37,269 nt of DNA from Novosphingobium sp. GTDB taxonomy: Bacteria > Pseudomonadota > Alphaproteobacteria > Sphingomonadales > Sphingomonadaceae. Position numbers and translations under genes: made by a program. Where the stretch lies: contig JAQWKP010000340.1 of the NCBI GenBank assembly GCA_029247785.1, positions 1 through 37,269 of the forward strand, given 5' to 3'. The notes beneath the pieces were generated by a model. The model did not search any database and was not told the DNA's origin. It saw nothing but the letters and a program-made list of their open reading frames with translations. This document shows positions 8,782 to 30,673 of the stretch, one piece after another. Numbering within the stretch: position 1 is the first letter of the stretch; every line of letters begins with the position of its first letter.

Positions 8782-9914
8782 TTGGCCGATTTCTCCTGCT
8801 CGTCGCGAATCTCTTCGATTTCGTCACGGCTGGCCCGCGTGTCGACTTCGACTTCAAGCGAAAGCCCGGGGACAAGAACGCGCTTGGAAGCCGGGCCAGC
8901 TTCGATCTTAATCCTGACAGGCACGCGCTGGACAATCTTGGTGAAATTCCCCGTCGCATTCTCAGGTTTGATCAACGAGAAATTCGCGCCGGTGCCGGGT
9001 GTGACGCTAGCGACAACTCCCCGGAATTCGACCCCTGGCAAGGCATCCACGACTATCTTTGCCGGCTGGCCAGACCGCATCAGACCAACCTGCGTTTCCT
9101 TGAAATTTGCGACGACATAGAGCCCCTCGTCGGGGACCACGGTCATCAGCCGTTGACCCGGCTGGACATACTGACCGACCCGGACGGATCGGTTCGCGAC
9201 CCTGCCCGCTATGGGGGAAACAATAGATGCCGAAGCAAGGTCATTTGCCGAGGCCTGTCGCTGTACTCTTGCCGCTGCGATCTGCGCCCCCAGGTTACGC
9301 GTCTGCGCCGCAAGACTGGCCACGCGTTTATGCGCCTGGCTCAGCGCGGCTTGCCGGGCAGCGACGTCTGCAACCGCACGATCCTTGTCGGCGACAAGTT
9401 GCGACAGCTTCATTTTTGGTTCGGCACCGGCGGCAACGAGGGGCCGATATCGGTTCAATTCCCGCTCGGCTAGTGACAGACTTGCCCGCGCCGCACGCAG
9501 CGCAGCCCTGGCTAGGGCCACGCCGGCGATTCCTTCGGCCTGCGCCGCCCTAGCCGCGTCTTCAGCTGCGCTCGCAGTAGCGATACCGGCATCGGACGCC
9601 GCGAGTTGGGTCCTGAAATCCAGCGGATCAATCTCGACCAGCCGGGCGCCTTTCGCCACGGATTGATTGTCATCGACTAGAACGGCCTGAACGTAGCCCG
9701 CAAGTTTCGAGCCGATGGTTACCTGGTCCGCTTCGATACGCGCATCATTTGTCTCCTGAAAATATTGCAAGTGGCGGTCGTAGTAGAAATAGAAAGCAAT
9801 CGCTCCAGCAAGCAATGCGACCAGCAGAACTATTCCCATCCGCCTCAGTCGTGTTGTCATTACGCGCTTACCTGGAATCGACGCATTCCCGCCCCCTGAA
9901 ATCCAATGAGCCAC
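8778..9914 (-). CDS. HlyD/EmrA-type membrane fusion protein (start may be ATG at 9860, MTTRLRRMG)
   Basis: 378 aa; N-terminal TM, TNDARIEADQVTIGSKLAGYVQAVLVDDNQSVAKGARLVEIDPLDF biotinyl-lipoyl-like domain; 4-nt overlap with the MFS gene. Confidence 0.93.
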   Translation of the reverse strand: MAHWISGGGNASIPGKRVMTTRLRRMGIVLLVALLAGAIAFYFYYDRHLQYFQETNDARIEADQVTIGSKLAGYVQAVLVDDNQSVAKGARLVEIDPLDFRTQLAASDAGIATASAAEDAARAAQAEGIAGVALARAALRAARASLSLAERELNRYRPLVAAGAEPKMKLSQLVADKDRAVADVAARQAALSQAHKRVASLAAQTRNLGAQIAAARVQRQASANDLASASIVSPIAGRVANRSVRVGQYVQPGQRLMTVVPDEGLYVVANFKETQVGLMRSGQPAKIVVDALPGVEFRGVVASVTPGTGANFSLIKPENATGNFTKIVQRVPVRIKIEAGPASKRVLVPGLSLEVEVDTRASRDEIEEIRDEQEKSAK

Positions 9915-10163: not shown

Positions 10164-11543
10164 GTGAAGCTAGCGACGAGAAACGAGCAGGTGACTGGAA
10201 CGCTGGCCAAACTCGTAGTCCTGCTCGCTCTCCTTTTGTTCAGCTCAAAGATGGTCTCAGCTGCGACAGAAACTTCCACCCGCTTCGAAGGCGTGGCGAG
10301 CTGTGCGGGCTCTACTTGTCACGGGCGCAACGAAGGTGACGGCAAGGTGGTGCGCCAGGATGAACTGAGAATCTGGCAGGAACCCTCAAGCAAGGCTGGT
10401 GCACATAGCCGGGCATTCAGCGTCCTCGCCAGCCAGCGCGGCCAGCGCATTGCTTCCGCACTCGACCTCGGAAAAGCGACCTCCGCAACGGAGTGCCTTG
10501 GTTGCCATTCGACTTTTGTGCCAACTGAACGGCGAGGCGAGCGCTTCCTCCTATCGGACGGTGTCGGCTGCGAATCTTGCCACGGTGCAGGCTCCGGCTG
10601 GCTTTCCGGACACTATGCCGTTCCGGCAACCCACACGTCGAACGTCGCTGCCGGCTTGCAGGAACTCAATCACCCGCAAGTCCGTGCGTCGGTTTGCCTC
10701 GACTGCCATTTCGGAAGCGACAGACAGGGACAATTTGTTACCCATGCCATGATGGCGGCTGGCCATCCGCGTATTTCGTTCGAGTTGGACTTGTTCTCAG
10801 CCATGCAGCAACATTACAACTTCGACACCGACTACAAGCGTCGCAAGTCCACGCCGGACGCCCTACAACTCTGGGCGGTCGGCCAAGCTGAAGCCGTGAA
10901 ACGCTCCACCCGGCTGTTCGGCAATGCCAAGCTGGCTACCGAGGGCATCTTTCCGCAGTATTACTTCTTCGACTGCCACAGCTGCCATCGCCAGATCACC
11001 GATAACCCGACTGCCAACCGCCGGTTCGAGACCAATCCGGGCCGACCGATGCCGTTCGGCTTGGCACCATACAATGACGAGAATATCATTATACTGTCGG
11101 CGGTGTCCAAAGTCCTGGCCCCCGGCCAGGCATCACGCTTCGATGCTGCCAGCCGCAAGTTCCACTCTGCGATAGGTCAGGGGCGCTCACAGGCCGTTGC
11201 GGCGGCACGCCAGCTCAATGCGGCAGCTGATGCGCTCTCCGATGCCCTTGCCGTGCGGGGCTTTGCCGGAGGCACCGCATTTAGTGTCATCGAGGCGATC
11301 AGCAGCAAGGCAATCTCGCCCCGCTTTACCGATTATGCAGGGTCCGTTCAGGCAGTCATGGCTATCGACACGCTACTCAATTCTCTCGTGAAGGATGGAC
11401 GCGTCACGATCGGTGCAGCGGCAGGGATTCGAGCCGACATCAACCGCGCCTATGCTGCTGTTGGCAGCCCAGAACGCTATAGCCCCTCGCAATTCCGGGC
11501 GGCGCTCGGCCGCGCTTCTCGCAGCATCGGAGCGCTTAACTAA
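10164..11543 (+). CDS. Cytochrome c554-like multiheme c-type cytochrome (4 CXXCH + 1 CX4CH)
   Basis: 459 aa, GTG start with GGGAG SD-like motif upstream, signal-like N-terminus; heme motifs CAGSTCH (CX4CH), CLGCH, CESCH, CLDCH, CHSCH. Confidence 0.88.
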   Translation: MKLATRNEQVTGTLAKLVVLLALLLFSSKMVSAATETSTRFEGVASCAGSTCHGRNEGDGKVVRQDELRIWQEPSSKAGAHSRAFSVLASQRGQRIASALDLGKATSATECLGCHSTFVPTERRGERFLLSDGVGCESCHGAGSGWLSGHYAVPATHTSNVAAGLQELNHPQVRASVCLDCHFGSDRQGQFVTHAMMAAGHPRISFELDLFSAMQQHYNFDTDYKRRKSTPDALQLWAVGQAEAVKRSTRLFGNAKLATEGIFPQYYFFDCHSCHRQITDNPTANRRFETNPGRPMPFGLAPYNDENIIILSAVSKVLAPGQASRFDAASRKFHSAIGQGRSQAVAAARQLNAAADALSDALAVRGFAGGTAFSVIEAISSKAISPRFTDYAGSVQAVMAIDTLLNSLVKDGRVTIGAAAGIRADINRAYAAVGSPERYSPSQFRAALGRASRSIGALN

Positions 11544-13525
11544 TGCGCAAGTTGCCAGGATATATTTCAAGTGCGGCGCTTTCTCTGTTGGTAGCCTGCA
11601 GCGGCGGGTCAACGCCATCTGGTGGCGGATCATTCGGGACCGGAACGCCTTCACCAACCCCTACGCCCGCAGCAGCGGGCAGCTACTCGATACCTGCGAC
11701 CGAGGCCCTCACCGTCGTCGATGTGCGACGGATCATCGCTCAGGCCGTCGGTGAAGCACAGGCTCAGAACCTTCCGTCGATCATTGCCGTGGTCGACCGT
11801 GTCGGAAATGTGCTGGCCGTCTTCAGCATGAACGGCGCTCGCCCGGACATGGTGACCAGCCGGCTCACTGCCACTGGCGTTATCAACAATCCCAATGTCG
11901 ACGCCCAAGGTCTGAATGTTCCGGCAACACTGGGGGCCATCGCCAAAGCTGTCACCGGGGCGTATCTATCAAGCGGCGGCAATGCCTTTTCCACCAGGAC
12001 TGCTAGTCAGATCGTCCAAGCTAATTTTCCGCCTGCCCCCAATACAGTCGGTCTCGAGAGCGGTCCGCTTTCCGGTGTGCAGTTCAGCCAACTGCCTTGT
12101 TCCGATCTCAACACTCGTTTCAAGGCGGGGGCCGCCACCGATGCGTTGATCGGCCCCAAACGGTCGCCGCTTGGGCTTGCGGCAGACCCTGGTGGTCTGC
12201 CGCTCTACAAGAATGGTGTGATCGTTGGCGGAATCGGCGTGATGGGTGACGGTGATTACGGTCTAGACCCCAATACACTCGATATCGATAGCGATGCTGA
12301 AGAACACATCGCTCTTGCCGGCATTCAGGGATTTGCGCCGCCTGAAACGATCACGGCGGACAAGATCACAGTCGACGGCACCAGCCTGCGGTTCAGCGAT
12401 GCCAAAGCTGCAAGCCTTTCCCCGCTCCAGACCAGTTTCGCCGTGGTGAACGGCTCGGCAGGACAGTTGATCGCCGTCAATGGATATACCAACGGCACCA
12501 TGATCGCGGGCACTGCTTATGGGACCGAAGCCAGCGGCTTCAGGAAGGCGGCCGGCGGGGACTTCGCCTTCTCCGATGCCTTCGTGTTGAGCAACGGCGC
12601 TGGCGGCAATCGTTTTCCGATCAAGGCCGGGACTGACGGAGTCGATGTCAGCCAGCCACTCACCGCTGCAGAAGTCCGCGCAATCCTTGAAGAAGCCTTC
12701 AAGCTCATGCGTCGCTCACGGGCCCAGATTCGTCGTCCACTTGACAGCCGGGCAGAGGTGACCGTCAGTCTCGTCGACACCTATGGCGCGGTGCTCGGTG
12801 TCGTCCGCTCACCCGACGCCCCAATCTTCGGAACCGACGTCTCGCTGCAGAAAGCGCGCACCGTCGGCTTTTTCTCGAACCCGATCGCAGCCCAGCAGCT
12901 TCTCAATAACCCGGACGCGGAAATTCCCGCATTCGTCCAGCGTACTCGAACATTCTTTGGCGATCCCACTGCCCTGAGCGGCAAGGTCGCGTTCGGCGCC
13001 AGGGCGATCGGCAATATCGCGCGACCGCACTTCCCCGATGGTGAAGCGGCTCAACCTGAGGGACCATTCTCACGACCTATTGAGGATTTCAATCCATTCG
13101 CCACCGGCCTGCAAGTCGCACTCGTCGCCTCTAATCTGGTGCAACACGCAAATTTTGTTAGCGGTCAACCAGGAGCCAGCGACACCGCCCAGCAGTGCAC
13201 GAATGTCCCGCCTGCGCCTTCGGGCCAGAGCCGGCTCGCAAACGGCATGCAGATATTCTCCGGAGGCGTTCCAATATACCGCAACGGAGTGATCGTCGGC
13301 GCGATCGGCGTCTCCGGCGACGGCATCGACCAAGACGACATGATCAGCTTCCTTGGCGTCGATCTTGGCGGCAAGAGAGTCGGTTCGATCGGCAACGCGC
13401 CCTCGGCGATCCGGTCGGACAAAGTCGTGATCAATGTCGGTGCCGGAGTGCGTCTACGCTACGTTAACTGCCCGTTCGCGCCATTCCTCGATTCGGCTGA
13501 ACAGAACGTCTGCGCGGGTCTGTGA
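11543..13525 (+). CDS. Lipoprotein with two GlcG/HbpS (DUF336-like) heme-binding-type domains
   Basis: 660 aa; lipobox LLVAC at the N-terminus; two copies of the family pattern (VVDRVGNVLAVFSMNGA ... GGLPLYKNGVIVGGIGVMGDGD and LVDTYGAVLGVVRSPDA ... GGVPIYRNGVIVGAIGVSGDG). TAATG overlap with the preceding gene. Confidence 0.82.
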   Translation: MRKLPGYISSAALSLLVACSGGSTPSGGGSFGTGTPSPTPTPAAAGSYSIPATEALTVVDVRRIIAQAVGEAQAQNLPSIIAVVDRVGNVLAVFSMNGARPDMVTSRLTATGVINNPNVDAQGLNVPATLGAIAKAVTGAYLSSGGNAFSTRTASQIVQANFPPAPNTVGLESGPLSGVQFSQLPCSDLNTRFKAGAATDALIGPKRSPLGLAADPGGLPLYKNGVIVGGIGVMGDGDYGLDPNTLDIDSDAEEHIALAGIQGFAPPETITADKITVDGTSLRFSDAKAASLSPLQTSFAVVNGSAGQLIAVNGYTNGTMIAGTAYGTEASGFRKAAGGDFAFSDAFVLSNGAGGNRFPIKAGTDGVDVSQPLTAAEVRAILEEAFKLMRRSRAQIRRPLDSRAEVTVSLVDTYGAVLGVVRSPDAPIFGTDVSLQKARTVGFFSNPIAAQQLLNNPDAEIPAFVQRTRTFFGDPTALSGKVAFGARAIGNIARPHFPDGEAAQPEGPFSRPIEDFNPFATGLQVALVASNLVQHANFVSGQPGASDTAQQCTNVPPAPSGQSRLANGMQIFSGGVPIYRNGVIVGAIGVSGDGIDQDDMISFLGVDLGGKRVGSIGNAPSAIRSDKVVINVGAGVRLRYVNCPFAPFLDSAEQNVCAGL

Positions 13526-13526
13526 A

Positions 13527-15548
13527 ATGCCGATAGCGTCACTGCTCGTTCCAATGTTACTGGCCCAGCCTATAGCCGGAGCGGCCGCAGGGGATCTTAC
13601 TACGTCGGAGAAGCTTGCACGAGAGACGAGCGAGAGCGCTCCGGATGACGACGCTGACTGGGTGGGGTGCATCGTCGAGACAGACCAGAACATCATTTGT
13701 CCGCCAGGCGTTGAAGAAGCTCCCGACACGGTCGACCCCGGATTACTTGAGGGACGCCGCCGGCCTGGCCTTGAAGCCGCCCTTCCCGAACGCGTTACCC
13801 AAGACAATCCCGGCGCCGTCCGCGCCCCACCGCCTGAGGCCTTTCCCGTGGATCAGGTACCCATTCCAGACCGCTGGCGGCTGATTCAATCGCTAGGCCT
13901 GGTTAAGGAGCGCTGGTTCGATCCTTACAACCAGAACACATACAAAGGCGACCGACCGATTTGCATCCCTACCGAGGATGAGCAAGAAAGGCGGATGGCT
14001 CTGCGCGAGGCCGCGCGAGCCGAAGGCAAAAAGCCGCCCTATGGAAGCGCGCCATGCCTTACACCAAAATTCCTGGGCTTGACTGGGGATGACTGGTTCT
14101 TCGCTGCCAACCTTGTTTCAGACACGGTTTTCGAACCCCGCACATTCCCCATACCTGTCGGGCTGCAAACCACCACCCGGCCGGACACGCTCGACCTCTT
14201 CGGCAAGGATGCGAGCATGGTATTCTCGCAAACCTTCATCGCCGGCCTCGCTCTGATCAAGGGTCAGACTGCCTTCAAGCCTCCCGATGTAGAGTATCGG
14301 GTGACGCTGGCGTACAACGTAAATTATGTAAATGTACCTGAACGGCGCGTGCTGTTCGTCGAACCATCCAAGCCCTCGCAGCGCACCGACCATTTTCTGG
14401 GAGTCCAGGAAGCCTTCATCGATTATCACATCCGCAACACCTCTGACCGTTACGACTTCGATTCGATTCGTGTTGGCATCCAGCCGTTCCAGGCCGATTT
14501 CCGCGGCTTTCTGTTCAATGACAACCAGTTGGGCATCCGCCTGTTTGGCACCCGGGATAACAATCGATTCCAATTCAACGTCGGGGCATTCTGGCGACTG
14601 GAGAAGGACACCAACAGCGGCCTCAATGCGATTCTGCAAAAACCTCGCAAGGACTGGGTGCTCTATGCAAATCTGTATCGGCAAGATTTCCTGATCCCGA
14701 GCCTAACCAGCCAGATAACCGTGGTCTACAACCGCAACCGCGAAGGCAACCAGATCGAGATCGACGATAATGGCTTTACGGTCCGGCCGGCCCTGATTGG
14801 CGATCTTCGAGGACGTGAGTATGATGTCGTTTATCTCGGCTACAACGCCGACGGGCATATCGGGCGCATCAACTTGACCGCATCGGCCTATGCGGCGCTG
14901 GGCAAAGACCGGAACAGCATCTTCACCAGCGAGCCTGCCAATATCCGTGCATTTTTCGGCGCCGCCGAACTGAGTTATGACCGCGCATGGATGCGATTCA
15001 GGCTATCGGCACTCTATGCGTCAGGTGATGGCGATCCTTACGACAACAAGGAAACTGGCTTCGACGCGATTTTCGAGAATCCGGTCTTCGCCGGCGCCGA
15101 CACCAGCTACTGGATCCGCCAGACGATTCCGTTCGCTGGCGGCGGCCGGGCCGTTTCTGTCAACGGTCGCAACGGTATTCTTAATTCCCTTCGCTCGTCC
15201 AAAGAGCAGGGCCAATCCAACTTTAACAATCCGGGAACGATGCTTCTGGGCGTTGGCGGCGATTTTGACCTGACCCCGGAATTTCGCCTGTCGGTCAACG
15301 CCAACCACCTCTGGTTCGAAAACACATCCTCGCTGCAAGCGCTGCGCAATGAAGGCAGCATTCCCAAGGATATCGGCTATGATCTATCTCTTTCGGCAAT
15401 CTGGCGCCCGAAAGCGACGCAGAACATCGTCGCTCGCTTGTCCGCAGCCGCCCTACTCCCCGGCAAGGGCTTCCGCGACTTGTTTGACAACCAGAACGGG
15501 AACCGGAACTACTATTCGATTCTCGCCAACGTGATATTCACATACTGA
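13527..15548 (+). CDS. Outer-membrane beta-barrel/porin-like protein
   Basis: The ORF opens at 13434, but ATG at 13527 gives MPIASLLVPMLLAQPIAGAAAGD (signal-like) directly after the upstream stop; many amphipathic strand-like segments and a terminal aromatic strand (NRNYYSILANVIFTY). Confidence 0.75.
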   Translation: MPIASLLVPMLLAQPIAGAAAGDLTTSEKLARETSESAPDDDADWVGCIVETDQNIICPPGVEEAPDTVDPGLLEGRRRPGLEAALPERVTQDNPGAVRAPPPEAFPVDQVPIPDRWRLIQSLGLVKERWFDPYNQNTYKGDRPICIPTEDEQERRMALREAARAEGKKPPYGSAPCLTPKFLGLTGDDWFFAANLVSDTVFEPRTFPIPVGLQTTTRPDTLDLFGKDASMVFSQTFIAGLALIKGQTAFKPPDVEYRVTLAYNVNYVNVPERRVLFVEPSKPSQRTDHFLGVQEAFIDYHIRNTSDRYDFDSIRVGIQPFQADFRGFLFNDNQLGIRLFGTRDNNRFQFNVGAFWRLEKDTNSGLNAILQKPRKDWVLYANLYRQDFLIPSLTSQITVVYNRNREGNQIEIDDNGFTVRPALIGDLRGREYDVVYLGYNADGHIGRINLTASAYAALGKDRNSIFTSEPANIRAFFGAAELSYDRAWMRFRLSALYASGDGDPYDNKETGFDAIFENPVFAGADTSYWIRQTIPFAGGGRAVSVNGRNGILNSLRSSKEQGQSNFNNPGTMLLGVGGDFDLTPEFRLSVNANHLWFENTSSLQALRNEGSIPKDIGYDLSLSAIWRPKATQNIVARLSAAALLPGKGFRDLFDNQNGNRNYYSILANVIFTY

Positions 15549-18500
15549 TGCGGCTGCTGCGCTTCCTCCTTGTCTTGATTGCGATCCTTATGGTCGCGGT
15601 GCCGTCGGCCCAAATCCTGGCGAGCGACGATGAAATGACGGTTGAGCGCGACTATTCGCTGGTAACCGCGCCGCCCGCTCCGGCCAGGCAGTCCGTTGCA
15701 GATGTCCGGATGAAATCGGAAGGCTGCCTGAGCTGCCACGTCGAGACCGATTCGGCCAGCATGCACGCCACGCCTGCGGTCCGGCTTGGCTGCACCGATT
15801 GCCACGGCGGCAACGCCACCATCAAAGGCAATCCCGAACTAGGCTTTTCCCATCCCGACTATGTCGCGGCGCGCGATGCTGGCCATGTCCTACCGAAATA
15901 TCCGGAAAGCTGGCACTTCCCGACTTCAGCCAACCCCAAGCGCGGCTACACCCTGCTCAACAAGGAAGCGCCCGAATTCGTCCGTTTCGTCAATCCCGGC
16001 GACTATCGTATCGCCCGCGAATCCTGCGGTGCCTGCCACCTCCCCGTTATCGAGGCTGCTGAACGCTCGCTAATGGCATCAGGCGCGATGCTTTGGGGCG
16101 GGGCCGCCTATAATAACGGCATTATCCCTTTCAAGAACTACGTCCTAGGGGAAGCCTACACACGCGAGGGTGAGCCAGCCAAGATAATTTCCCCTGGCTC
16201 ACCTGCCGGCACCCTGACAGCTGAGCAGCAGGCGCGCGGAGCCCTGGCAGCACTGTATCCGCTGCCCCGCTGGAATGTCATCCCGCCGGGAGACGTGTTT
16301 CGCGTCTTTGAACGCGGGGGTCGCAATATAAACTCGCAGTTCCCGGAAATCGGGCTGCCGAACCCGTCAGGCCAGATTCAGCGGCTCGAGGAGCCAGGGC
16401 GGCCCGACCTCAAGCAGTCGAACCGAGGTCCCGGCACAGGCCTGAGAGTCGCTATCCCGGCGCTCAACATCCACAAGACTCGGCTCAACGACCCTTTCAC
16501 CTGGTTCATGGGCACCAATGACCAGCCCGGCGACTACCGCAGCTCAGGCTGCACCTCATGCCATGTCATCTACGCGAATGACCGAGAGCCGCGGCACAGC
16601 CTGATCTATGCATCGCTAGGGCGGGATGGGCAGACGATCACAAAGGACCCCACTATCGCGGCCAAGCTGGAACCTGCTCAAAGCAACGATCACGGTGATG
16701 GCCAGAATGCGATGCCCCACGATAGCGACGACCGCGGCAAGACCCCGGGGCACGGCGACGGGCACAACTCGGACGGCAAGGCCAAAGAAAAAGGCCATCC
16801 CCTCCAGCATATCTTCACTCGCGCCATTCCAACGGCCCAGTGCATGAATTGCCACATGCATCAGCCTAACGTCTTCGTGAATCCCTATCTTGGCTACACT
16901 ATGTGGGACTATGAATCCGACGCGCCGAAAATGTGGCCCGGCCCTGAAAATGAAACGCCCCGGCCCGAAGGGATCAGCGACGAAGAATACCAAAGAGTAT
17001 ATAAGCAGCAGCGCTTTCCCACTGCCGAGGAAGTGCGTGCCATAAATGAGCGCAATCCCGAAGCCGCCGCAGCGAAGGGCCTATGGGGCGATATCGATTT
17101 CCTGCGCAACGTCTATGACCTCAACCCCGAGCTCAAGGACACGCAGTTCGCGGACTATCACGGCCATGGCTGGAATTTTCGTGCCGTTCTGAAGCGCGAC
17201 CGCGATGGCAACCTGCTCGATGCCGATGGCAATATCGTCGACCCCGACGATCCGGAGAAATGGCGCCGCAAGGATGAGGGCAAATTCGTCGAAGTGGGCA
17301 AAAATCCGGGCAAGACCGTCCACATGATGGATATCCATGCTGAAAAAGGGCTGCAATGCGCGGACTGCCATTTCGCGCAGGACAGCCATGGCAACGGACT
17401 TATCTACGGCGAAGTAGCCAATGCCGTCGAAATCGGCTGTAAGGATTGTCACGGCACTGCCGACGCATATCCGACCCTGCTAACATCGGGACCGGCGGCG
17501 CCCCCGACTGGCAATGACCTGACCCTGCTGCGCAATCCCGATGGCGAGCGCCGCTTCGAATGGCGCGAGGAACCATCCGGACGCAGGACGCTGATCCAGC
17601 GCTCGATCATCGATCCAGGCCTGCAGTGGGAAGTCAGCCTTGTCAGGAATTCGGTTGACGCTGCTTCGCCCGATTTCAACTCCAAATCAGCGCGCGCAAA
17701 GCTGATAAGCACGGCCGGAGCAGATGACGGCAATTATGCTTTCGGCCCCGGCATCACGGTGGAAAATCGCGCCCACAAGGATGACGAGATGGCCTGTTTC
17801 ACTTGCCATCTGTCATGGACAACGAGCTGCGGTGGCTGCCACTTGCCGATCGAGGCGAACTGGCAAACCTCGATGCACCACTATGAGGGCGAGACGACAC
17901 GCAATTTCGCAACCTACAACCCACAGGTTGCGCGCGACCAAATGTTCCAGCTGGGCAAGCACATGACGACCAAGGGCAGTCAAGTTGCGCCGATTCGTTC
18001 GACCTCGGCGCTCGTGCTGTCCTCGACCAACATCAACCGCGAACGGATCTATGTGCAGCAGCCGCCAATCTCGTCCTCGGGCTTTTCCAGCCAGGCATTC
18101 GCACCTCACTTCCCGCACACAGTTCGTAAGACGGAGACCAAGGCTTGCACCGATTGCCATCTCAGCGCCGATGAAGACAACAATGCGATTATGGCGCAGT
18201 TGCTGCTGCTCGGCACCAATTTTGTCAATTTTGTCGGCATCAACGCCTGGGTCGGGCTCGATGGTGGCTTTGAGGCCATACGGGTGACCGAATGGGACGA
18301 ACCGCAAGCAGTGCTTGGCTCTTACCTGCACCGCTATGCCTATCCCGACTACTATCGCCTGCATGTCGAGAAGAACGGGCGCGAGCTGAAGAATTGGGTG
18401 CGGGGCAAGTATTTTGATGGCAGCGCTTCCGGCGAAACCAAGGCGATCGAGCAATTCCGCAATGTCGTGCAGGGCACGCGTGGCGCCGTGGGCTGTCTGC

Positions 18501-19711
18501 AGATGCGCGGCGAATATATGTTCGTTGCCGAAGGCAAGGGCGGTTTGCACGTCTATGATATTGCCTCGGTCGGCAACAAGGGCATTTCCGACCCGGTCTT
18601 CAGCGCGCCTTTCTCCCCGCTCGGCCATGACACTCGGGTCAAGACCAGCAATGCCACCTGTATGGCGCTTGCAACTAACCAGCCTGTCGCACCCGACCGT
18701 AGTCGCGCCATGGATGCCACCGAGATGATGGACAGCGACGGCAATCCGATCATCCAGGAAGACGGCACTCCGCTGACTTTGCTTGAGGCCAACCAGGAGC
18801 AGAAATTTCTGCCGATTTATGATTACGCTGTCATCACTGACAGTGAAGAGGGCCTGATCCTTGTCGACATCAACACCATGGCGGACGGCGAATTCCGCAA
18901 CAACAAGCTCAAGCGTGCGGCGACCTGGAATCCAGACAAAGTACTCGCGGGCGCGCGCCACATCACCCTGGCCGGCGAAATCGCTTACGTCACTGCAAAT
19001 GCCGGACTCGTCGTTGTCGACCTCACCGACCCGCTCAATCCCGTGCTCGCCTCGGTCCAACCGCTAAGAGATGCCCGCGCAAGCGCAGTGCAGTTCCGCT
19101 ACCTTTGGGTGACAGACGCTGAGGGATTAAAGCTGTTCGACGTTACTGATCTGCGCAGACCGGTCGCCGTTCCATCGGGCACGGTCTCGCTAGCCGACGC
19201 GCGCCGAATCTATCTCGCGCGCACCTACGCATATGTCGCTGCGAAGCAGGACGGGTTGGTGATCGTCGACGTAACTCAACCTGGATCGCCGAATATATAC
19301 GAGAAGGTTACTCTGGGCGGACGGCTCAACGACGCCGAGGACGTGATCGTCGGTTCGACAAACGCTACCCTCTTCGCATATGTCGCCGACGGCAGAAACG
19401 GACTCAAGGTCCTGCAGCTGACCTCGCCATCGACCCAGCCTAATTTCTACGGCTTCTCACCCGCGCCGAAACCGCAGCTAATCGCCTGGGCAAAAACGCC
19501 TTCGCCGGCGCGAGCGCTGTCCAAGGGGCTTGATCGTGACCGGGCGGTCGATGAAACAGGCGGCCAAATGGCTATCTTTGGTCGCCTCGGATCGCGGCCC
19601 TTCACCCGACCGGAAATGGAAAAGCTGTTCCTCAACCGGCAGCGCGTGCCCTTCAAGGTCACCGACACAGTCGACATGTCGACATGGGTCCCGCTGCCCG
19701 CGCCGCAGTGA
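15548..19711 (+). CDS. Large decaheme c-type cytochrome with C-terminal LVIVD-repeat (beta-propeller-like) region
   Basis: 1387 aa; N-terminal signal-like MRLLRFLLVLIAILMVAVPSAQILA; ten CXXCH (CLSCH, CTDCH, CGACH, CTSCH, CMNCH, CADCH, CKDCH, CFTCH, CGGCH, CTDCH); C-terminal repeats such as GLVVVDLTDPLNP, GLKLFDVTDLRRP, GLVIVDVTQPGSP. Start overlaps the upstream stop (TGATG). Confidence 0.92.
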   Translation: MRLLRFLLVLIAILMVAVPSAQILASDDEMTVERDYSLVTAPPAPARQSVADVRMKSEGCLSCHVETDSASMHATPAVRLGCTDCHGGNATIKGNPELGFSHPDYVAARDAGHVLPKYPESWHFPTSANPKRGYTLLNKEAPEFVRFVNPGDYRIARESCGACHLPVIEAAERSLMASGAMLWGGAAYNNGIIPFKNYVLGEAYTREGEPAKIISPGSPAGTLTAEQQARGALAALYPLPRWNVIPPGDVFRVFERGGRNINSQFPEIGLPNPSGQIQRLEEPGRPDLKQSNRGPGTGLRVAIPALNIHKTRLNDPFTWFMGTNDQPGDYRSSGCTSCHVIYANDREPRHSLIYASLGRDGQTITKDPTIAAKLEPAQSNDHGDGQNAMPHDSDDRGKTPGHGDGHNSDGKAKEKGHPLQHIFTRAIPTAQCMNCHMHQPNVFVNPYLGYTMWDYESDAPKMWPGPENETPRPEGISDEEYQRVYKQQRFPTAEEVRAINERNPEAAAAKGLWGDIDFLRNVYDLNPELKDTQFADYHGHGWNFRAVLKRDRDGNLLDADGNIVDPDDPEKWRRKDEGKFVEVGKNPGKTVHMMDIHAEKGLQCADCHFAQDSHGNGLIYGEVANAVEIGCKDCHGTADAYPTLLTSGPAAPPTGNDLTLLRNPDGERRFEWREEPSGRRTLIQRSIIDPGLQWEVSLVRNSVDAASPDFNSKSARAKLISTAGADDGNYAFGPGITVENRAHKDDEMACFTCHLSWTTSCGGCHLPIEANWQTSMHHYEGETTRNFATYNPQVARDQMFQLGKHMTTKGSQVAPIRSTSALVLSSTNINRERIYVQQPPISSSGFSSQAFAPHFPHTVRKTETKACTDCHLSADEDNNAIMAQLLLLGTNFVNFVGINAWVGLDGGFEAIRVTEWDEPQAVLGSYLHRYAYPDYYRLHVEKNGRELKNWVRGKYFDGSASGETKAIEQFRNVVQGTRGAVGCLQMRGEYMFVAEGKGGLHVYDIASVGNKGISDPVFSAPFSPLGHDTRVKTSNATCMALATNQPVAPDRSRAMDATEMMDSDGNPIIQEDGTPLTLLEANQEQKFLPIYDYAVITDSEEGLILVDINTMADGEFRNNKLKRAATWNPDKVLAGARHITLAGEIAYVTANAGLVVVDLTDPLNPVLASVQPLRDARASAVQFRYLWVTDAEGLKLFDVTDLRRPVAVPSGTVSLADARRIYLARTYAYVAAKQDGLVIVDVTQPGSPNIYEKVTLGGRLNDAEDVIVGSTNATLFAYVADGRNGLKVLQLTSPSTQPNFYGFSPAPKPQLIAWAKTPSPARALSKGLDRDRAVDETGGQMAIFGRLGSRPFTRPEMEKLFLNRQRVPFKVTDTVDMSTWVPLPAPQ

Positions 19712-20707: not shown

Positions 20708-21562
20708 TCAGCCAAGTCCCCGGCGCTCTTCGTCGATATGCTTGACGATTTCCTGCAGGGATTTGTCAAAGCGAGCGAAAACGCGGTGGTCATCGACGGC
20801 TTCGAAATGGGAGATCAGGCGTTCGCCATCCCAGTGATGCAATGCGTAAACCGGGTATTCGTCGGTAATCATTGCGCGCTTGTCAGGTTTTTTGGGGTTG
20901 ATAGGCCTCAAATCGAGAGCGACGAGCGGCGCGGTCGAGGCGCAGACTGTTAACGGCACTCCATTCCACAATGCGTGGATGTTGCGATGAAGGTGTCCGC
21001 TAAGGATCGCCTGAACTTGGCCATGACCGGCGATACTATCGGCAAACCTCTTCATCCAGGGCTCATTGGCGTTACCATCAAGCCAGCTGATTCCCGATTC
21101 GAACGGCGGATGATGCATCGCAATGATCGTCGGCGTATTCGGATGGGCGGCGAGCTCAGATTGCAGCCAGGCCGCACGAGCCTCACAGAATGCACCGCCA
21201 TGCCGCCCTGGCTCAAGCGTATCGAGCAGAAGGACCCGCGCGTCCTCGGCTTCGATCGCAAATTGGATGAAGCTCTCATTGCTGGGCGTGTCAGGAAAGG
21301 CGGCCAGCATGGCATCACGATCATCATGGTTGCCGACCATCGGCCAGACCGGAAACGGGCAGATATCAACAGCCTCGGCGAGTCGCTTATAGCTTGGAGC
21401 ATCGCCAAATTCGGTGAGATCGCCTGTCATCACGAGCGCGTCGGGTGCGTTGGGCGCATCGACAAGCCTCTGGATAACCGCCTCGAGGCGTTCCATGTTG
21501 TATTCGTCCGGGTTTCCCTGGTCAAAACCGATATGAACGTCAGTGATCTGTGCGATCAGCAA
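20708..21562 (-). CDS. CpdA-like metallophosphoesterase (candidate 3',5'-cyclic nucleotide phosphodiesterase)
   Basis: 284 aa; MLIAQITDVHIGF, VMTGDLTEFG, MVGNHDDRD, AMHHPPFESG, ILSGHLHRNIH are the metal-ligand motifs of class III cyclic nucleotide phosphodiesterases. Confidence 0.87.
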   Translation of the reverse strand: MLIAQITDVHIGFDQGNPDEYNMERLEAVIQRLVDAPNAPDALVMTGDLTEFGDAPSYKRLAEAVDICPFPVWPMVGNHDDRDAMLAAFPDTPSNESFIQFAIEAEDARVLLLDTLEPGRHGGAFCEARAAWLQSELAAHPNTPTIIAMHHPPFESGISWLDGNANEPWMKRFADSIAGHGQVQAILSGHLHRNIHALWNGVPLTVCASTAPLVALDLRPINPKKPDKRAMITDEYPVYALHHWDGERLISHFEAVDDHRVFARFDKSLQEIVKHIDEERRGLG

Positions 21563-21616: not shown

Positions 21617-23356
21617 TCAGCCTTGTTCTTTGGCCCGAGAATTCCGCTTTCTGTCGGTTGTATCCACCGCTCCTTGTCCCGTCATGTGATAACCATGGCA
21701 CATAATACAACTCGACGGCACTTTTGCTTTCACCGTGTCTTCGCCGAGATGGCATTGACGGCAGTCCTTGATGCCTGGAAGCAGCAGGTCCTTTGCGCTG
21801 GTTGATGTTGGCGCCGCGTGGCAACTCGTGCAATCCTCTTGCTTATGGGCTGCGTGGTCAAACCAACCATGGTCCATGTACCGAGATACAAGTGTCACTG
21901 GCTGCACACCGATCTTGCCATCGGCGCGCGATGCGGGTCTGTGACATTCCCCACAAATTCCATCTTTCGACAAGGCTATCCCGACTTTCAATCCTTTCCA
22001 TGCCGCACCAGAGAAATTGAAATGATAGGGTCGGCCCTGCGCGTAATCGCCTGGCCGGCGGCGCGCTGAAATGGACTGCCGCCTGAAATCCCCCGCGCTT
22101 AGATCCGCGATCACCTGATCGACATCGCCATGCCTTAGCTTGCGGAAAATGCCACCAACCTGATCATAAGTCAGGCTGTGACAGGCCTCACAATCCCGCT
22201 CCATGTCGATTTTCTGGAAGCGAATTCCGTCCTCTGTCGGCCTGTGACAGTCCTTGCATTGCAGTCCGCCCGCGCCGTAACCGGCCTCACTGCCAATATT
22301 CGCCGCCATTCGCGCAACCCCGCCCTTTGTCCGGAGATGAAGTTTATGCGGAAATGTCAGGCCACTGTCTTCCCGCGGACGCCTGTCCAGCGAAACGCGG
22401 ACCGGCTTGCCGATGGTGGAATCGGTGATAATGGCCGGCGCGAACTGCGGATGCTGGCTACCGAAATCAACTGCTTCGCCGAGGCTGGTATCGGGCAAGT
22501 TCTCCTTGAGCATGCCATGGCAGTCTGCACAAAATGCCTGAGGCGCCGGCTCCATGAACCGATTGCCCTCATGCTCTGTATGGCAGTCCGCGCAGGCTCC
22601 CGGACCTTCCTTCCCAAATGCATGAGCGACGGACCGGAGGAGCTTAGTTCCCAGCGGCCTGCTTCCGTGTGCCGCGTCCAGCCGGGTTAAGTCGGCATGG
22701 TCATGCAGATCGGTGTGACAGGACTTGCAGGTTTCATCCCTCACCGATTCGAAAGCGCGAACATGGCAGGTTTCACACTGATCCTTCAGACCGTGATGGG
22801 CGAGGCTCAGATCGCCGGAGCTCCAGCTGGAATCGCCAATAACCTGCTGCTTGGCCTCGACATCGCGTGTGACGTGGCTGACGATCGGAACAGCAAGAAA
22901 CGACAAGAGTATGAATGCAGCCAGGGCCCACGACATGACGCGCTTGCTCGGCAGTACGCCCGCCAGCGAGAAGCCTAGCTTCTGTTCTAGATCGCCCGAC
23001 TTTGTGGCTGAGTCCTCGACCTGCCTGACAGTCAGCAGAACATCATCGGCGTCGGCAGAGATGGTGATGCGATATGTGCCGAAGCCGAGTTCGCCACCAC
23101 CGCTCCTATCAATTGTGGCTTGTGACGTTTCGACGCCGTCGAGCGAAAACCCCAGCGTGCCGGTCGCCTCGACACTTAGCCTGCCCCCCCCATGCTCAGT
23201 GATAGTCGCGTGCTGCGGCTCGATCGCGAGGTCGGGCAAGTGAATCCCATTCTCTGCCGCCCGTCCGACAGACACGCTCGATCCGGCATGTTCATAGTCT
23301 CGAACAATCTCGCGACCGGTAGCCGTGAACTCGACCGTCCTGAGTTTGAATGCCAT
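21617..23356 (-). CDS. FHA domain - transmembrane helix - decaheme cytochrome c fusion protein
   Basis: 579 aa; N-terminal FHA pattern SVGRAAENGIHLPDLAIEPQHATITEHGGG, single TM VMSWALAAFILLSFLAVPIVSHVT, then ten CXXCH (CETCH, CKSCH, CADCH x2, CKDCH, CEACH, CGECH, CTSCH, CRQCH, CIMCH). Confidence 0.9.
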   Translation of the reverse strand: MAFKLRTVEFTATGREIVRDYEHAGSSVSVGRAAENGIHLPDLAIEPQHATITEHGGGRLSVEATGTLGFSLDGVETSQATIDRSGGGELGFGTYRITISADADDVLLTVRQVEDSATKSGDLEQKLGFSLAGVLPSKRVMSWALAAFILLSFLAVPIVSHVTRDVEAKQQVIGDSSWSSGDLSLAHHGLKDQCETCHVRAFESVRDETCKSCHTDLHDHADLTRLDAAHGSRPLGTKLLRSVAHAFGKEGPGACADCHTEHEGNRFMEPAPQAFCADCHGMLKENLPDTSLGEAVDFGSQHPQFAPAIITDSTIGKPVRVSLDRRPREDSGLTFPHKLHLRTKGGVARMAANIGSEAGYGAGGLQCKDCHRPTEDGIRFQKIDMERDCEACHSLTYDQVGGIFRKLRHGDVDQVIADLSAGDFRRQSISARRRPGDYAQGRPYHFNFSGAAWKGLKVGIALSKDGICGECHRPASRADGKIGVQPVTLVSRYMDHGWFDHAAHKQEDCTSCHAAPTSTSAKDLLLPGIKDCRQCHLGEDTVKAKVPSSCIMCHGYHMTGQGAVDTTDRKRNSRAKEQG

Positions 23357-23371: not shown

Positions 23372-24235
23372 CTACCAGTAGTAGAGCACGCTGATGACGT
23401 GCGCGAGAAGCGCGGCTATCAGTGCGATCGTCGCTGGAACGTGAATGTAGAGCCAAACCTCCAGCATTCCCCTTAGTCGCATCTGTCGCCGGATTCGTTC
23501 AAGCTGCGCCTTGCGCCGAACCATGAGCTTTTCGACCCGATCCATAGCGGTGTCGGAAGAATCAGAACCGGCCAGTCCCTCGATAGCAGCCTGCGTTGCA
23601 CAATCTGGATGGTTGCCGGATAGCCTTCGAAATAGGCCATGGTCGAGAGGATCTTCCGCAAGGGCCTCAAGCACAAGGTCGGCCTGCACCCGGGCAAGCG
23701 GCTGCGCTGCATCGTGGAGCTGACGATCGAGCGACGTGATGGCGTCAACCATTTGCCCTTGAGTCATTTCCTCCCGGTTGCTGCTGAGCGCGCTTGGCAA
23801 GGTCGCATACAAATAGGTCCCGAATACTCCTGACAGGATCACCAGCATCATCATGGCATAGGCTAAGGTATGTACGTTCCAGCCCAACTGAAAGCCGGTG
23901 TGCAGCGTGGCAATTACGATAAGCGAGAGCCCGAGATAAACATGGGCCGACGTCCAGGCTTTGAGCGACCAGTTGCCCTGCGTGATCATTCGCTTGCGAA
24001 TACCCAGAAGCGAAAGCCAGAGGATTAGAAGGGCTCCGATCGTACCCAGAATATAGCCGATCCAGCTCCCCCCGTTCGGGCGTGGCTCGACATCCGCCAA
24101 CAGGTAGGCAATCAATGATACGACGCTGGCGCCAAGCGCAATCTTCAGCCAACGAAAGCTCCTGTGACGCAGGAAGCTTTCATGGCTGCCCGGGCCGCCG
24201 CGCGCCCTGTTTGCAGTGTGAGGCTTGGTGGCCAT
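23372..24235 (-). CDS. Putative b-type heme membrane protein (cytochrome b561/ferric-reductase-like)
   Basis: 287 aa, about five TM segments; spaced histidines in TM segments (SAHVYLGLSLIVIATLHTGF, NVHTLAYAMMM, WLYIHVPATIALIAALLAHVISVLYYW) around a soluble helical insert; TGATG overlap with the upstream gene. Confidence 0.7.
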   Translation of the reverse strand: MATKPHTANRARGGPGSHESFLRHRSFRWLKIALGASVVSLIAYLLADVEPRPNGGSWIGYILGTIGALLILWLSLLGIRKRMITQGNWSLKAWTSAHVYLGLSLIVIATLHTGFQLGWNVHTLAYAMMMLVILSGVFGTYLYATLPSALSSNREEMTQGQMVDAITSLDRQLHDAAQPLARVQADLVLEALAEDPLDHGLFRRLSGNHPDCATQAAIEGLAGSDSSDTAMDRVEKLMVRRKAQLERIRRQMRLRGMLEVWLYIHVPATIALIAALLAHVISVLYYW

Positions 24236-26682
24236 CAGGCGTCTTCACTCATGCGCGTAGCTGAAAGGAAGCCCTCTGGCGAAACGCGGATTGCTGCACC
24301 CGTAGGGCAGGCGCGAACGCACGATGGGCCGCCATCGATACCCGAGCACATGTCGCATTTGATGGCGCGCTTGGGACTTTCTTCGCCTTCAATAATATTC
24401 TTCTTGCGCCAGCTCTTGGTTGGCTCACCAGGGCCGGGCCCCTTGCCCAGAAATAGCCAATTCAGCAGAGAAGGCTTGGCCGGCGGTACACTGTCCATGC
24501 GGATCACCCCATAGGGACAGTTTCTCTGACAATTGCCGCATCCGATGCAGGTCTCGTCGATGAAGACTTCTCCGTCGATGCCGCGCTGGATCGCGTTGGG
24601 TGGGCAGTCGGCCATGCAATGCGGGTGTTCGCAATGACGGCAGCTGGTCGGAACGTGAAGATGCGCATAGGTCGTACCCGCCTCGCGATCGAGGCGCGAG
24701 AGACCGTCATGACTATCCGCGCATGCCTTTTCACAATTGTCGCAGCCTACACAGAGCGTTTCGTCAATCAGCAGGACGTCCGTCGCCTCGCCGATGCCGT
24801 TGTCGACAAGGAATTGGGCGGTCTGCGAATACATATCGACGACGCCGGAAAAATTCTCCTTGCGGCTTTCAATGAACGTGTTGACCTCCCTGCGTTTTTC
24901 CATTTCCACCTGGGCCTTGCGGAGCAAGTCTGGCTCGCGTTCAAGCAGGCGGACAAAGGCATCGCCAGGCAGCCTGATGACCTCGGATTTGATCGCCGCG
25001 CGCACCGTCGCGTTGCGGGGCGCACCGTCGATAACGCCCATTTCCCCAACATAAGAGCCAGCAGGCAAATAGCTTAGAAACACTGGCTTGCCGGCAATCT
25101 CGCGCTCGACGATCATCGAGCCGCGGCGGATGATATAGATATCCTCCCCCATCTCGCCTTCCTGAAGGACGACCTCGCCAGCCCGCTTGTTCTGCACTTC
25201 CGCGCCCTCAACCAGTTCGGCGACATCCTCCTTGGTAAGTCCCGAGCCAAATATCTGGAGCAATTGCCGTTCGATCGAGATCCGGTTGACCGCCCGCGCA
25301 GCGCTCGGAACCGTCGCGATCAATTTGAGCGCCGCAGTACGCAACAGCTCGACAACTACAAGGTCCTCGGCCGCACGGATCGTTGCGCCTCGGCGCCTAC
25401 CCGAGATCAGGCCGACTTCGCCGAAAATCGAGCCTTCCTCGATCGGAACGGTAATCGAAGGGTCTTCCTTGTTGACCTCGACCAGCACCGAGCCTTGCGC
25501 GATGGCAAATAGCGAAGAGCCGGGCGCATTGCGGTCGAAAACCGCGTCCCCGCGAGAAAAGCTTTTCACTCGGCTGTCGATCAGCAATTCGCGAAGTTGC
25601 AGAGGCGAGAGTTCCTTGAATATCTCGATGTTACTGCCAAACAGATCAAGCCACTCGGCGACACTCCGGCTGCCTGGCAGCGCAGCAAATTTTTCAGTCA
25701 GGATCGGCTCGTCTGCGGGCTTGAGCGTCGTATTGCCATTGAGAAATTCTACGACATCATAGCCCTGATTCATACAGTGCTTGATCAGCGGGTAGCCAGC
25801 CAGCGCACCGATGACATGGATCCCTGAACGGGTCGTCTCGAACACTGGCGAGAGTACCGGAAAGGCTTCGCGTTCCTCGCTGGTGAATTCAATGTCGCAG
25901 CCCTCGACGAAACTGCGCGGCGGCGCCGAGCCGGTTCGGGCGATAATCCGCCCACACTCGATGGTTTCCTGCCCGTCGCGTGTGTCGAGCACGAGCTTTC
26001 CTTCGCGAACCTCGGCAGGCGTCGTCTCGGTCCTCACATGCACACGGCCGGCCGCTCCTGCCTCCTTCAGCAATTCGACATTGGCCTTCTTCGCACGCGC
26101 GAATTCCGGGCTGCGGTTGAGGATCGTGACCACGTTGCGCTGCGCTGGATCGGCGGCAAGGCCAAGCGCGTTCTCGATTCCGGCGTCGCCCGATCCAACC
26201 ACAGTGATATGTTCGTCAATATACTCGGTCGGATCGTCGAGCTGGTACTGGATATGTGGCGAGTCAGCGCCGTCGCAACGCAGCTTGTTGGGATTGCCCT
26301 GGGTTCCGATCGCGAGAATGACGGCTTCGGCTTCGATAGTGTCTCCGCCTTTGAGCTGGAGAGTGAAATTGCCCTTCTCGCCGTCGATGCCGACAACATC
26401 CGCGTTGTAGCGGACGGCAATCTTGTTAGTCTCGGCCTGCTCGTCCCAAATTCCGAGAATGGTCTCGCGGCTGCCCGCGTCGAAATCGAGGTCAGACCTG
26501 AGGACCAGCATGGATGGCGTCGCCATGACGTGCTTGCCCTTCTGGTACTTGTAGATCGTGTCCGACAGGTGGTCGGTCTTTTCCAGCAACACGTGCGCAA
26601 TGCCAAGCTCGGCAGCGCGGCCAGCAGCGCTCAACCCCGCCGGACCAGATCCGACTATGGCAATCCGAACGCGTACTTCCAC
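24235..26682 (-). CDS. FAD/NAD(P)-dependent oxidoreductase fused to two cyclic-nucleotide-binding domains and a 4x[4Fe-4S] ferredoxin (HycB/DmsB-like) domain
   Basis: 815 aa; Rossmann IAIVGSGPAGLSAAGRAAELG; second Rossmann ITVVGSGDAGIENALGLA; two cNMP-type segments (GSVLVEVNKEDPSITVPIEEGSIFGEVGLISGRRRGATIRAAED and GSMIVEREIAGKPVFLSYLPAGSYVGEMGVIDGAPRNATVRA); Fe-S motifs CVGCDNCEKAC, CRHCEHPHCMADCP, CIGCGNCQRNCP, CDMC...CVRACP. Confidence 0.92.
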   Translation of the reverse strand: MEVRVRIAIVGSGPAGLSAAGRAAELGIAHVLLEKTDHLSDTIYKYQKGKHVMATPSMLVLRSDLDFDAGSRETILGIWDEQAETNKIAVRYNADVVGIDGEKGNFTLQLKGGDTIEAEAVILAIGTQGNPNKLRCDGADSPHIQYQLDDPTEYIDEHITVVGSGDAGIENALGLAADPAQRNVVTILNRSPEFARAKKANVELLKEAGAAGRVHVRTETTPAEVREGKLVLDTRDGQETIECGRIIARTGSAPPRSFVEGCDIEFTSEEREAFPVLSPVFETTRSGIHVIGALAGYPLIKHCMNQGYDVVEFLNGNTTLKPADEPILTEKFAALPGSRSVAEWLDLFGSNIEIFKELSPLQLRELLIDSRVKSFSRGDAVFDRNAPGSSLFAIAQGSVLVEVNKEDPSITVPIEEGSIFGEVGLISGRRRGATIRAAEDLVVVELLRTAALKLIATVPSAARAVNRISIERQLLQIFGSGLTKEDVAELVEGAEVQNKRAGEVVLQEGEMGEDIYIIRRGSMIVEREIAGKPVFLSYLPAGSYVGEMGVIDGAPRNATVRAAIKSEVIRLPGDAFVRLLEREPDLLRKAQVEMEKRREVNTFIESRKENFSGVVDMYSQTAQFLVDNGIGEATDVLLIDETLCVGCDNCEKACADSHDGLSRLDREAGTTYAHLHVPTSCRHCEHPHCMADCPPNAIQRGIDGEVFIDETCIGCGNCQRNCPYGVIRMDSVPPAKPSLLNWLFLGKGPGPGEPTKSWRKKNIIEGEESPKRAIKCDMCSGIDGGPSCVRACPTGAAIRVSPEGFLSATRMSEDA

Positions 26683-26802: not shown

Positions 26803-27729
26803 ATGACACAACATACAACCCGACCTTACCCGATTGCCCGGATCGCATTGATCGTCGCTGCGCTGGCAGCGGCATTTGCGGTGGGATTTACGATCTCGAG
26901 AAGCGCGGATGAGGGTGGCACCAGCGACCTCACTGTTCCCGATGCCGTCTCCACAGTAGCGTCGGTTTCAAGCCTGGAGGAAAAAACCAAGGCAAATCCC
27001 GAAAACGCACCCGCCTGGCTGGAGCTAGGCCAGGCCTATTTTGTCGATAGCCGGTTCGCAGACGCAGCGCGGGCCTATGACAAGGCGACCGCCCTCGTTC
27101 CGGACGACGCGATGGCGTGGTCGGCGCTCGGCGAGGCGCGGGTCATGGCAAGCGAGCGTGATCCGATGCCAGCCGAGGCGCTCGCCGCATTCAAGCGCGC
27201 CATCGCCCTCGATAGCAAGGAGCCACGAGCACGGTATTTTCTCGCCGTCAAACGGGACCTTGATGGAGACCACGAGGGGGCCATCGCTGACTGGCTCGCC
27301 GTGCTTATGGACACACCCGAGAACGCTCCCTGGCGCGGCGACTTGATCCGCACGGTCGAGCAGGTCGGCAAGATCAACGGGATCGACGTCGCCGCTCGCC
27401 TCGCAAAGGCCGGCGCGCAATCCCCTCCCGCACCGCCCATGCCTGCGGCAGCGCGCGCCATACCCGGGCCCTCGGCGCAGGACCTTGCAGCGGCTTCGCA
27501 AATCCCGCCGGGCGAGCAGCGCGAAATGGCCGAAGGCATGGTCGCGCGGCTGGAAAGCCGTCTCAAGGGCGACCCCGCCAATGTCGACGGGTGGCTGATG
27601 CTGATCCGCAGCCGGGCAACGCTTGGCCAGAAGGACAAGGCGAGCCAGGCGCTCAAGGACGCAGCAGCAGCTAACCCGGCACAAGCGGCCGCGATTCGCC
27701 AGCAGGCCGCGACGCTCGGCGTGAAGTGA
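26803..27729 (+). CDS. CcmI/NrfG-like TPR protein, putative cytochrome c biogenesis factor
   Basis: The ORF opens at 26038 but that part is antisense to the reductase gene; ATG at 26803 gives a TM anchor (IARIALIVAALAAAFAVGFTI) plus TPRs and C-terminal AASQIPPGEQREMAEGMVARLESRLKGDPANVDGWLMLIRSRATLGQKDKASQAL, a CcmI-like region. Confidence 0.83.
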   Translation: MTQHTTRPYPIARIALIVAALAAAFAVGFTISRSADEGGTSDLTVPDAVSTVASVSSLEEKTKANPENAPAWLELGQAYFVDSRFADAARAYDKATALVPDDAMAWSALGEARVMASERDPMPAEALAAFKRAIALDSKEPRARYFLAVKRDLDGDHEGAIADWLAVLMDTPENAPWRGDLIRTVEQVGKINGIDVAARLAKAGAQSPPAPPMPAAARAIPGPSAQDLAAASQIPPGEQREMAEGMVARLESRLKGDPANVDGWLMLIRSRATLGQKDKASQALKDAAAANPAQAAAIRQQAATLGVK

Positions 27730-30097: not shown

Positions 30098-30673
30098 TCA
30101 CCCAAAGATTGCCGCGATCGCGTCCTGGCTTTCGTAAAGGAAGACGAAAAACGTCAGCGACAATCCGACCTGGAAGGTGCGATAAGCGTATGCGAGCAGG
30201 CGGTATTTCTTGGTCTGAAGGGCCATGCCGTTCTGGTAGATATCGCGCGCCATGGTTGAAAGCACGCGACCGTCGGTCTCGCTCGCTTCCATCATCCGGT
30301 CGATATAATCGTCCTCCAGCATGTGCGTGAACACACCGAAGAACAACAGGTTTCGCCTGGCGCCTGTGGGTGGCTTAGCCATGACCTTGGGGACCACCGC
30401 GGCGACTGCGAAACTCGCCGAAATGAATGCCGAAAGCGCCAGGATCAACAGCGAAATCTTGTAGCTCCCTGCCGCCGCCTGGCCGACCGCGATGGAGAAT
30501 ACGACAAAAGACGCACCCATCAGCAAGCTCGCCTTCTGATCGGCCATCTGGCTCAATTGCATGTGCACCATCATGGAGGTGCGCACCAGGTGGATGGCGT
30601 GGTTGGAATAGCTGGTGTCGTCGTATTTCGTGAGTGACGAGTCTGTTTGTTCCGCCAATTTATGGCCCTCCAT
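30098..30673 (-). CDS. Pycsar-effector-family (PycTM/DUF5706-like) membrane protein
   Basis: 191 aa; HLVRTSMMVHMQLSQMADQKASLLMGASFVVFSIAVGQ, two-TM core, C-terminal DIYQNGMALQTKKYRLLAYAYRTFQVGLSLTFFVFLY match the PycTM layout. Confidence 0.78.
   Translation of the reverse strand: MEGHKLAEQTDSSLTKYDDTSYSNHAIHLVRTSMMVHMQLSQMADQKASLLMGASFVVFSIAVGQAAAGSYKISLLILALSAFISASFAVAAVVPKVMAKPPTGARRNLLFFGVFTHMLEDDYIDRMMEASETDGRVLSTMARDIYQNGMALQTKKYRLLAYAYRTFQVGLSLTFFVFLYESQDAIAAIFG

Follow-up and report, generated by a model that had tools for sequence, protein, structure and literature searches.

A conserved FHA-decaheme cytochrome of Sphingomonadaceae as the probable hub of a PCC4-like electron conduit

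The inner-membrane protein of the putative porin-cytochrome conduits PCC3 and PCC4 has five transmembrane (TM) helices, an SGXXG motif on TM4 and WX3HX13H motifs on TM3 and TM5, and two hemes b were inferred for it from these ferric-reductase-like HX13H pairs (He et al. 2017, PMC5566968). PCC4 comprises a porin with 4-, 5-, and 10-heme cytochromes, and in its subgroup II a pfam13247 Fe-S gene lies upstream of the inner-membrane protein, while the PCC3 cytochromes are repeat-rich and heme-rich, with medians of 34 and 21 (PMC5566968). Both conduits have been proposed to oxidize a donor, and in the PCC4 model quinone receives the electrons of an extracellular donor; the main text calls the PCC4 MHCs periplasmic and makes no mention of FHA, forkhead, cNMP, or cyclic nucleotide (PMC5566968). 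A 2023 survey of Gallionellaceae lists an MMseqs2 cluster (403) as "Forkhead-associated protein" under "Other," with 10 CXXCH motifs and in 27 of 87 genomes of these iron oxidizers (PMC10734462, Table 1); its main text has no further mention of a forkhead-associated protein. Because it was tabulated there without comment, the architecture that we describe is not one unseen before. Our literature searches for FHA with multiheme or decaheme, and for EET in Sphingomonadaceae, returned nothing, and a search for LVIVD with cytochrome returned nothing relevant by title and abstract. We found no experimental study of the electron-chain gene set, nor a paper discussing the FHA domain of the decaheme protein, its topology, or its pocket.

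Here, we analyze a 37,269-nucleotide stretch of DNA from a Novosphingobium sp. (contig JAQWKP010000340.1), hereafter the window. It resembles PCC4 in its five-TM protein, which bears SGXXG and two WX3HX13H motifs, in the pfam13247 Fe-S gene upstream of it, and in a 10-heme cytochrome. We consider it probable that this cytochrome, fused to an FHA domain, is the inner-membrane hub of a PCC4-like electron conduit, which may run outward or inward, and that the FHA domain is a phosphorylation-independent dock.

An FHA fold, one TM helix, and ten CXXCH motifs in a single protein

The open reading frame at 21617-23356 on the minus strand encodes a 579-residue product with an FHA fold, a single TM helix, and ten CXXCH motifs. 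An earlier note had read an FHA-like pattern, one TM segment, and ten CXXCH from these letters, and ORF translation, hydropathy, and motif counting bear out all three. We confirmed 277 homologous stretches in GTDB contigs; our sphingomonad homolog set is the best 80 of these 277, nearly all named Sphingomonadales and the rest named only Alphaproteobacteria, Pseudomonadota, or uncultured bacterium.

The FHA-fold domain spans residues 1-112 (23021..23356, minus strand) and was recognized by AlphaFold, VIA, and Pfam FHA, the last at 21.5 bits, barely above the cut-off of 20.7. The assignment is firmer than this weak score, because the homolog profile, the AlphaFold model, and the structural matches all agree. 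A PDB search with a profile built from 30 homologs retrieved OdhI and GarA (E 2e-6), and a single-chain AlphaFold model of residues 1-165 was confident over residues 1-110 (pLDDT 94-97). With this model, the top structural matches in Foldseek were FHA domains (E 1e-5), and VIA aligned 87-97 residues to solved FHA domains (Z about 10-11, rmsd 2.2-2.7). Structure prediction thus gives the N-terminal region a confident FHA fold, as the earlier note had supposed, and since homologs at ~44-60% identity retain the domain, we do not attribute this reading to chance.

The TM helix (residues 137-163; 22868..22948, minus strand) corresponds to the single hydrophobic segment of the protein (137-166 by hydropathy) and to a helix in the model; it contains invariant R139 and P157 and is preceded by a conserved PSKR sequence, positive inside. 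The flanks of this helix carry on average 3.2 Lys plus Arg on the N-terminal side versus 1.4 on the C-terminal side. Because of this bias we assign an N-in/C-out topology, which puts the FHA domain in the cytosol and the hemes in the periplasm; the N-terminal region is not on the exported side, in agreement with the earlier placement of the FHA domain.

The periplasmic decaheme domain (residues 187-557; 21686..22798, minus strand) matches Pfam Cytochrome_C7 and Cytochrom_c3_2 and contains the ten CXXCH motifs, which span residues 194-550; same-composition shuffled proteins contain 0.05 on average and 2 at most (n=2000). Ten hemes are the rule in 98 of 100 homologs, accounting for all 80 sphingomonad sequences (best 80 of 277) and 18 of 20 distant ones. 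A further ten His residues outside the motifs (187, 220, 262, 302, 337, 340, 409, 501, 504, and 557) are invariant or nearly so (100-101 of 101 sequences) and are candidates for one distal ligand per heme, with the pairing of each His to its heme putative. As this is the number needed for all-bis-His ligation, electron transfer rather than catalysis is indicated.

A co-inherited gene set and the direction of electron flow

The FHA-decaheme protein is conserved in Sphingomonadaceae, other Alphaproteobacteria, and other Pseudomonadota. We found it in 72 of 199 Sphingomonadaceae genomes (family by GTDB), 36 of 385 alphaproteobacterial genomes, and 15 of 398 genomes across Pseudomonadota, the latter mostly Alphaproteobacteria. 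It belongs to a triad of genes, in the order reductase, five-TM protein, and FHA-decaheme protein, which recurs at 20 of 20 distant loci and at 77-80 of the 80 named sphingomonad loci (best 80 of 277). In the window, the upstream triad genes overlap or sit 15 bases apart.

Domain searches and conserved residues identify the first member (24235..26682, minus strand) as a cytosolic reductase, an FAD/NAD(P)H-type flavoprotein with two cyclic-nucleotide-binding domains and four [4Fe-4S] clusters, assigned from its 16 invariant Cys. Its match to Fer4_11 (pfam13247) scores 40.5 bits against a cut-off of 26.2, and its gene adjoins that of the five-TM protein. The Glu/Arg pairs of its cNMP sites (E422/R431 and E547/R556) are kept in 89-91 of 91 homologs. 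YpdA/TrxR-like matches raised a disulfide-reductase role, which we rejected: the flavin part lacks CXXC, and CXXC occurs in one of 91 homologs.

The second member, the five-TM inner-membrane protein (23372..24235, minus strand), has both WX3HX13H motifs (W94/H98/H112 and W261/H265/H279) in 99 of 99 homologs and SGXXG, at 135, in 90 of 99; we presume that it carries two heme b. A Foldseek search of the PDB with its model (pLDDT 88) gave nothing below E 0.001, and VIA comparisons with cytochrome b561, b6f, and STEAP gave Z of 7-8, weak for a helical bundle and unusable alone. Residues 150-257 form a large helical cytosolic loop with conserved Cys212 (86/99) and Thr214. This loop is a possible docking surface.

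Downstream of the decaheme gene lies a metallophosphoesterase of the CpdA/SpdA cyclic-nucleotide phosphodiesterase type (20708..21562, minus strand), a gene that 78 of the 80 sphingomonad loci (best 80 of 277) share. Because this gene follows and the Glu/Arg pairs of the reductase are kept, control by cyclic nucleotide is more plausible than control by phosphothreonine (pThr), and any signaling input is more likely to be a cyclic nucleotide. On the other side, a divergent neighbor encodes a CcmH/CycH-type TPR protein of cytochrome c maturation (26848..27729, plus strand; PF23914), kept in 68 of the 80 sphingomonad loci (best 80 of 277).

For the outer part of the chain we propose a secreted decaheme cytochrome with LVIVD repeats (15548..19711, plus strand), identified by 10 CXXCH, Pfam LVIVD, and its co-occurrence (71/72). 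Over the 199 Sphingomonadaceae genomes, the FHA-decaheme protein occurs in 72, the reductase in 71, and the LVIVD decaheme in 72, with 71 genomes common to all three. The Fisher p for this co-occurrence, about 1e-52 to 1e-54, overstates independence, as the genomes are related; for that reason, more weight falls on the cases without linkage. Of 42 genomes checked, 24 have the LVIVD gene on a separate contig or >20 kb away, and it is missing from none of these.

Beside it, a candidate outer-membrane barrel (13434..15548, plus strand) was assigned from its C-terminal aromatic residue and from its gene neighborhood, since in sphingomonad loci as well as distant ones it adjoins genes for the LVIVD decaheme and the HbpS-like protein; it matched no Pfam family, and a simple beta-strand count was no better than in shuffles. 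The set continues with a secreted, lipoprotein-like protein of repeated HbpS-like domains (11543..13525, plus strand; PF03928) and a tetraheme c554-type cytochrome (10164..11543, plus strand) with 4 CXXCH and one CX4CH. An HbpS-like-domain gene is found in the electron-transfer cluster of many genomes, and the CX4CH (CAGSTCH) is a possible fifth, unusual heme site.

Several other genes of the window deserve mention. A Pycsar-effector-type membrane protein (PycTM; 30098-30673, minus strand) sits beside glutamate dehydrogenase (GDH), with no cyclase seen nearby, and six of the sphingomonad loci (best 80 of 277) have a homolog flanked by the GDH and CcmH-like genes. Genes for an outer-membrane factor, an MFS protein, and an HlyD-type protein stand in a row at 5792-9914 (minus strand), an apparent tripartite efflux set by our reading of the sequence. 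At the contig edge (32213-37256, minus strand) lie conjugation or type IV secretion genes (TrbI/VirB10, CagX/VirB9, TrbL/VirB6, and VirB4 by Pfam).

In the conduit that we propose, electrons would pass from NAD(P)H to FAD and the four [4Fe-4S] clusters of the reductase, then to the presumed two hemes b in the five-TM protein and the ten bis-His hemes of the FHA-decaheme protein, and from these through the secreted cytochromes and the porin-like protein to an extracellular acceptor, or would flow in reverse. It is possible, though less likely than not, that the chain runs inwards, from a donor outside the cell, such as Fe(II) or Mn(II), through the outer cytochromes, the decaheme hub, and the b hemes to quinone or NAD(P)+. 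Most of the sphingomonad carriers, however, are not known to be iron oxidizers, and outward flow is at least as compatible with the pairing of a flavin/Fe-S reductase and a NOX/FRE-like diheme protein. In favor of inward flow are the donor-oxidizing role proposed for PCC3 and PCC4 (PMC5566968) and the decaheme Forkhead-associated protein of 27/87 iron-oxidizing Gallionellaceae (PMC10734462). Sequence would not by itself decide the direction.

The FHA pocket and its possible partners

Alignment to OdhI identifies R32 as the phosphate-binding Arg. G31-R32 is invariant in 100 of 100 homologs (the best 80 of 277 sphingomonad sequences plus 20 distant ones), and D42, L43, and H49 are invariant within sphingomonads (best 80 of 277). 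The earlier note had pointed to the pThr-binding residues, and here its expectation was not supported. The Ser of SxxH is replaced by E46 in the window protein, is present in three of 100 homologs (1/80 sphingomonad, from the best 80 of 277, and 2/20 distant), and gives way to an acidic residue in 64 of the 80 sphingomonad sequences (best 80 of 277). The pThr-site Asn, in the next loop, is replaced by G69; Asn occurs there in 6 of 80 sphingomonad sequences (best 80 of 277), and the residues listed at this position for the 20 distant homologs do not include it. Just the Gly-Arg pair and the structural His are thus left of the canonical site. The acidic residue at the Ser position may neutralize R32, and the invariance of this Arg may mean that some anion or acidic ligand is still bound.

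Loss of the pThr site would be compatible with an FHA fold that is a mere stable cytosolic plug or oligomerization module, aiding insertion or assembly with no partner, and phosphate-independent FHA folds exist elsewhere. We find this unlikely, however: in sphingomonads the apical loops, which form the ligand face, are more conserved than the remainder of the domain (entropy 1.13 versus 1.84 bits), and the G31-R32 pair never varies among the 100 homologs.

We searched for possible pThr writers of the Pkinase family (Hanks-type). No match over the cut-off was found in the window genome (100% complete) or in 14 of the 30 additional carriers. Among Sphingomonadaceae carriers apart from the window genome, 10 of the 15 tested lacked one; the kinase search that the earlier note had suggested therefore came back empty for this genome. 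The remaining 16 of the 30 carriers have Pkinase genes over the cut-off, one of them dozens. The FHA domain of the decaheme protein is the sole FHA domain in the window genome, and carriers retain the domain even when we found no Hanks-type writer in them. That it reads pThr, so that a Hanks-type Ser/Thr kinase gates the electron chain, as the earlier note had envisaged, is very improbable and was rejected as a general role, for although the fold is genuine and nearest the pThr-binding OdhI and GarA, the phosphate-contacting Arg is invariant, and some carriers have kinases, almost every homolog has lost the Ser and Asn of the site, and the window genome and many other carriers have no detectable Pkinase.

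Rather than linking the chain to kinase signaling, the fold more likely serves as a dock for other proteins of this widespread, putative electron-export (or electron-import) pathway. As such a dock it would need no pThr; with its conserved apical face it would keep at the membrane either the reductase or the loop that the five-TM protein exposes to the cytosol. Regulation, if any, would target the reductase by way of its two cyclic-nucleotide sites. The alternative suggestion of the earlier note, a scaffold on which the cytosolic reductase is assembled, draws its support from genetics: the reductase is encoded two genes upstream, and co-occurrence is near-perfect. We put forward more tentatively the idea that a phosphate-independent FHA domain fastens an NAD(P)H/Fe-S reductase, itself gated by cyclic nucleotides, to a TM decaheme hub, giving second-messenger-controlled electron export in largely aerobic sphingomonads. 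About a third of the sampled Sphingomonadaceae genomes contain a co-inherited, apparently trans-envelope electron-transfer gene set, in which the cytosolic FHA fold offers a testable handle on assembly of the inner-membrane step and intact cyclic-nucleotide sites suggest second-messenger gating of electron flow.

Relation to described FHA proteins and conduits

OdhI and GarA provide the nearest solved FHA sequences and are also among the nearest structures. They are soluble pThr-linked regulators, whereas the FHA domain of the decaheme protein lacks the pocket Ser and Asn and is membrane-anchored to a cytochrome. With PCC3 and MtrAB/MtoAB, the locus would share a working principle, namely that multihemes together with a porin carry electrons through the envelope. 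MtoA and MtrA are DmsE-family decahemes embedded in a porin (PMC5566968, PMC10734462). They are not known to have an FHA domain or a TM helix. Cluster 403 of Gallionellaceae is alike in its table description, having the same FHA annotation and 10 CXXCH as the window protein.

The likeness to PCC4 extends to distant loci, two of which (L146 and L150) have 4-, 5-, and 10-CXXCH cytochromes, the FHA protein being the 10; in the window the CXXCH counts are 4 (plus one CX4CH), 10, and 10, with no 5-CXXCH protein seen. Likened through published motifs and gene content, the PCC4 decaheme would be a member of the FHA-decaheme family. The sphingomonad cluster differs from PCC4 in its second decaheme, with LVIVD repeats, and its HbpS-like protein.
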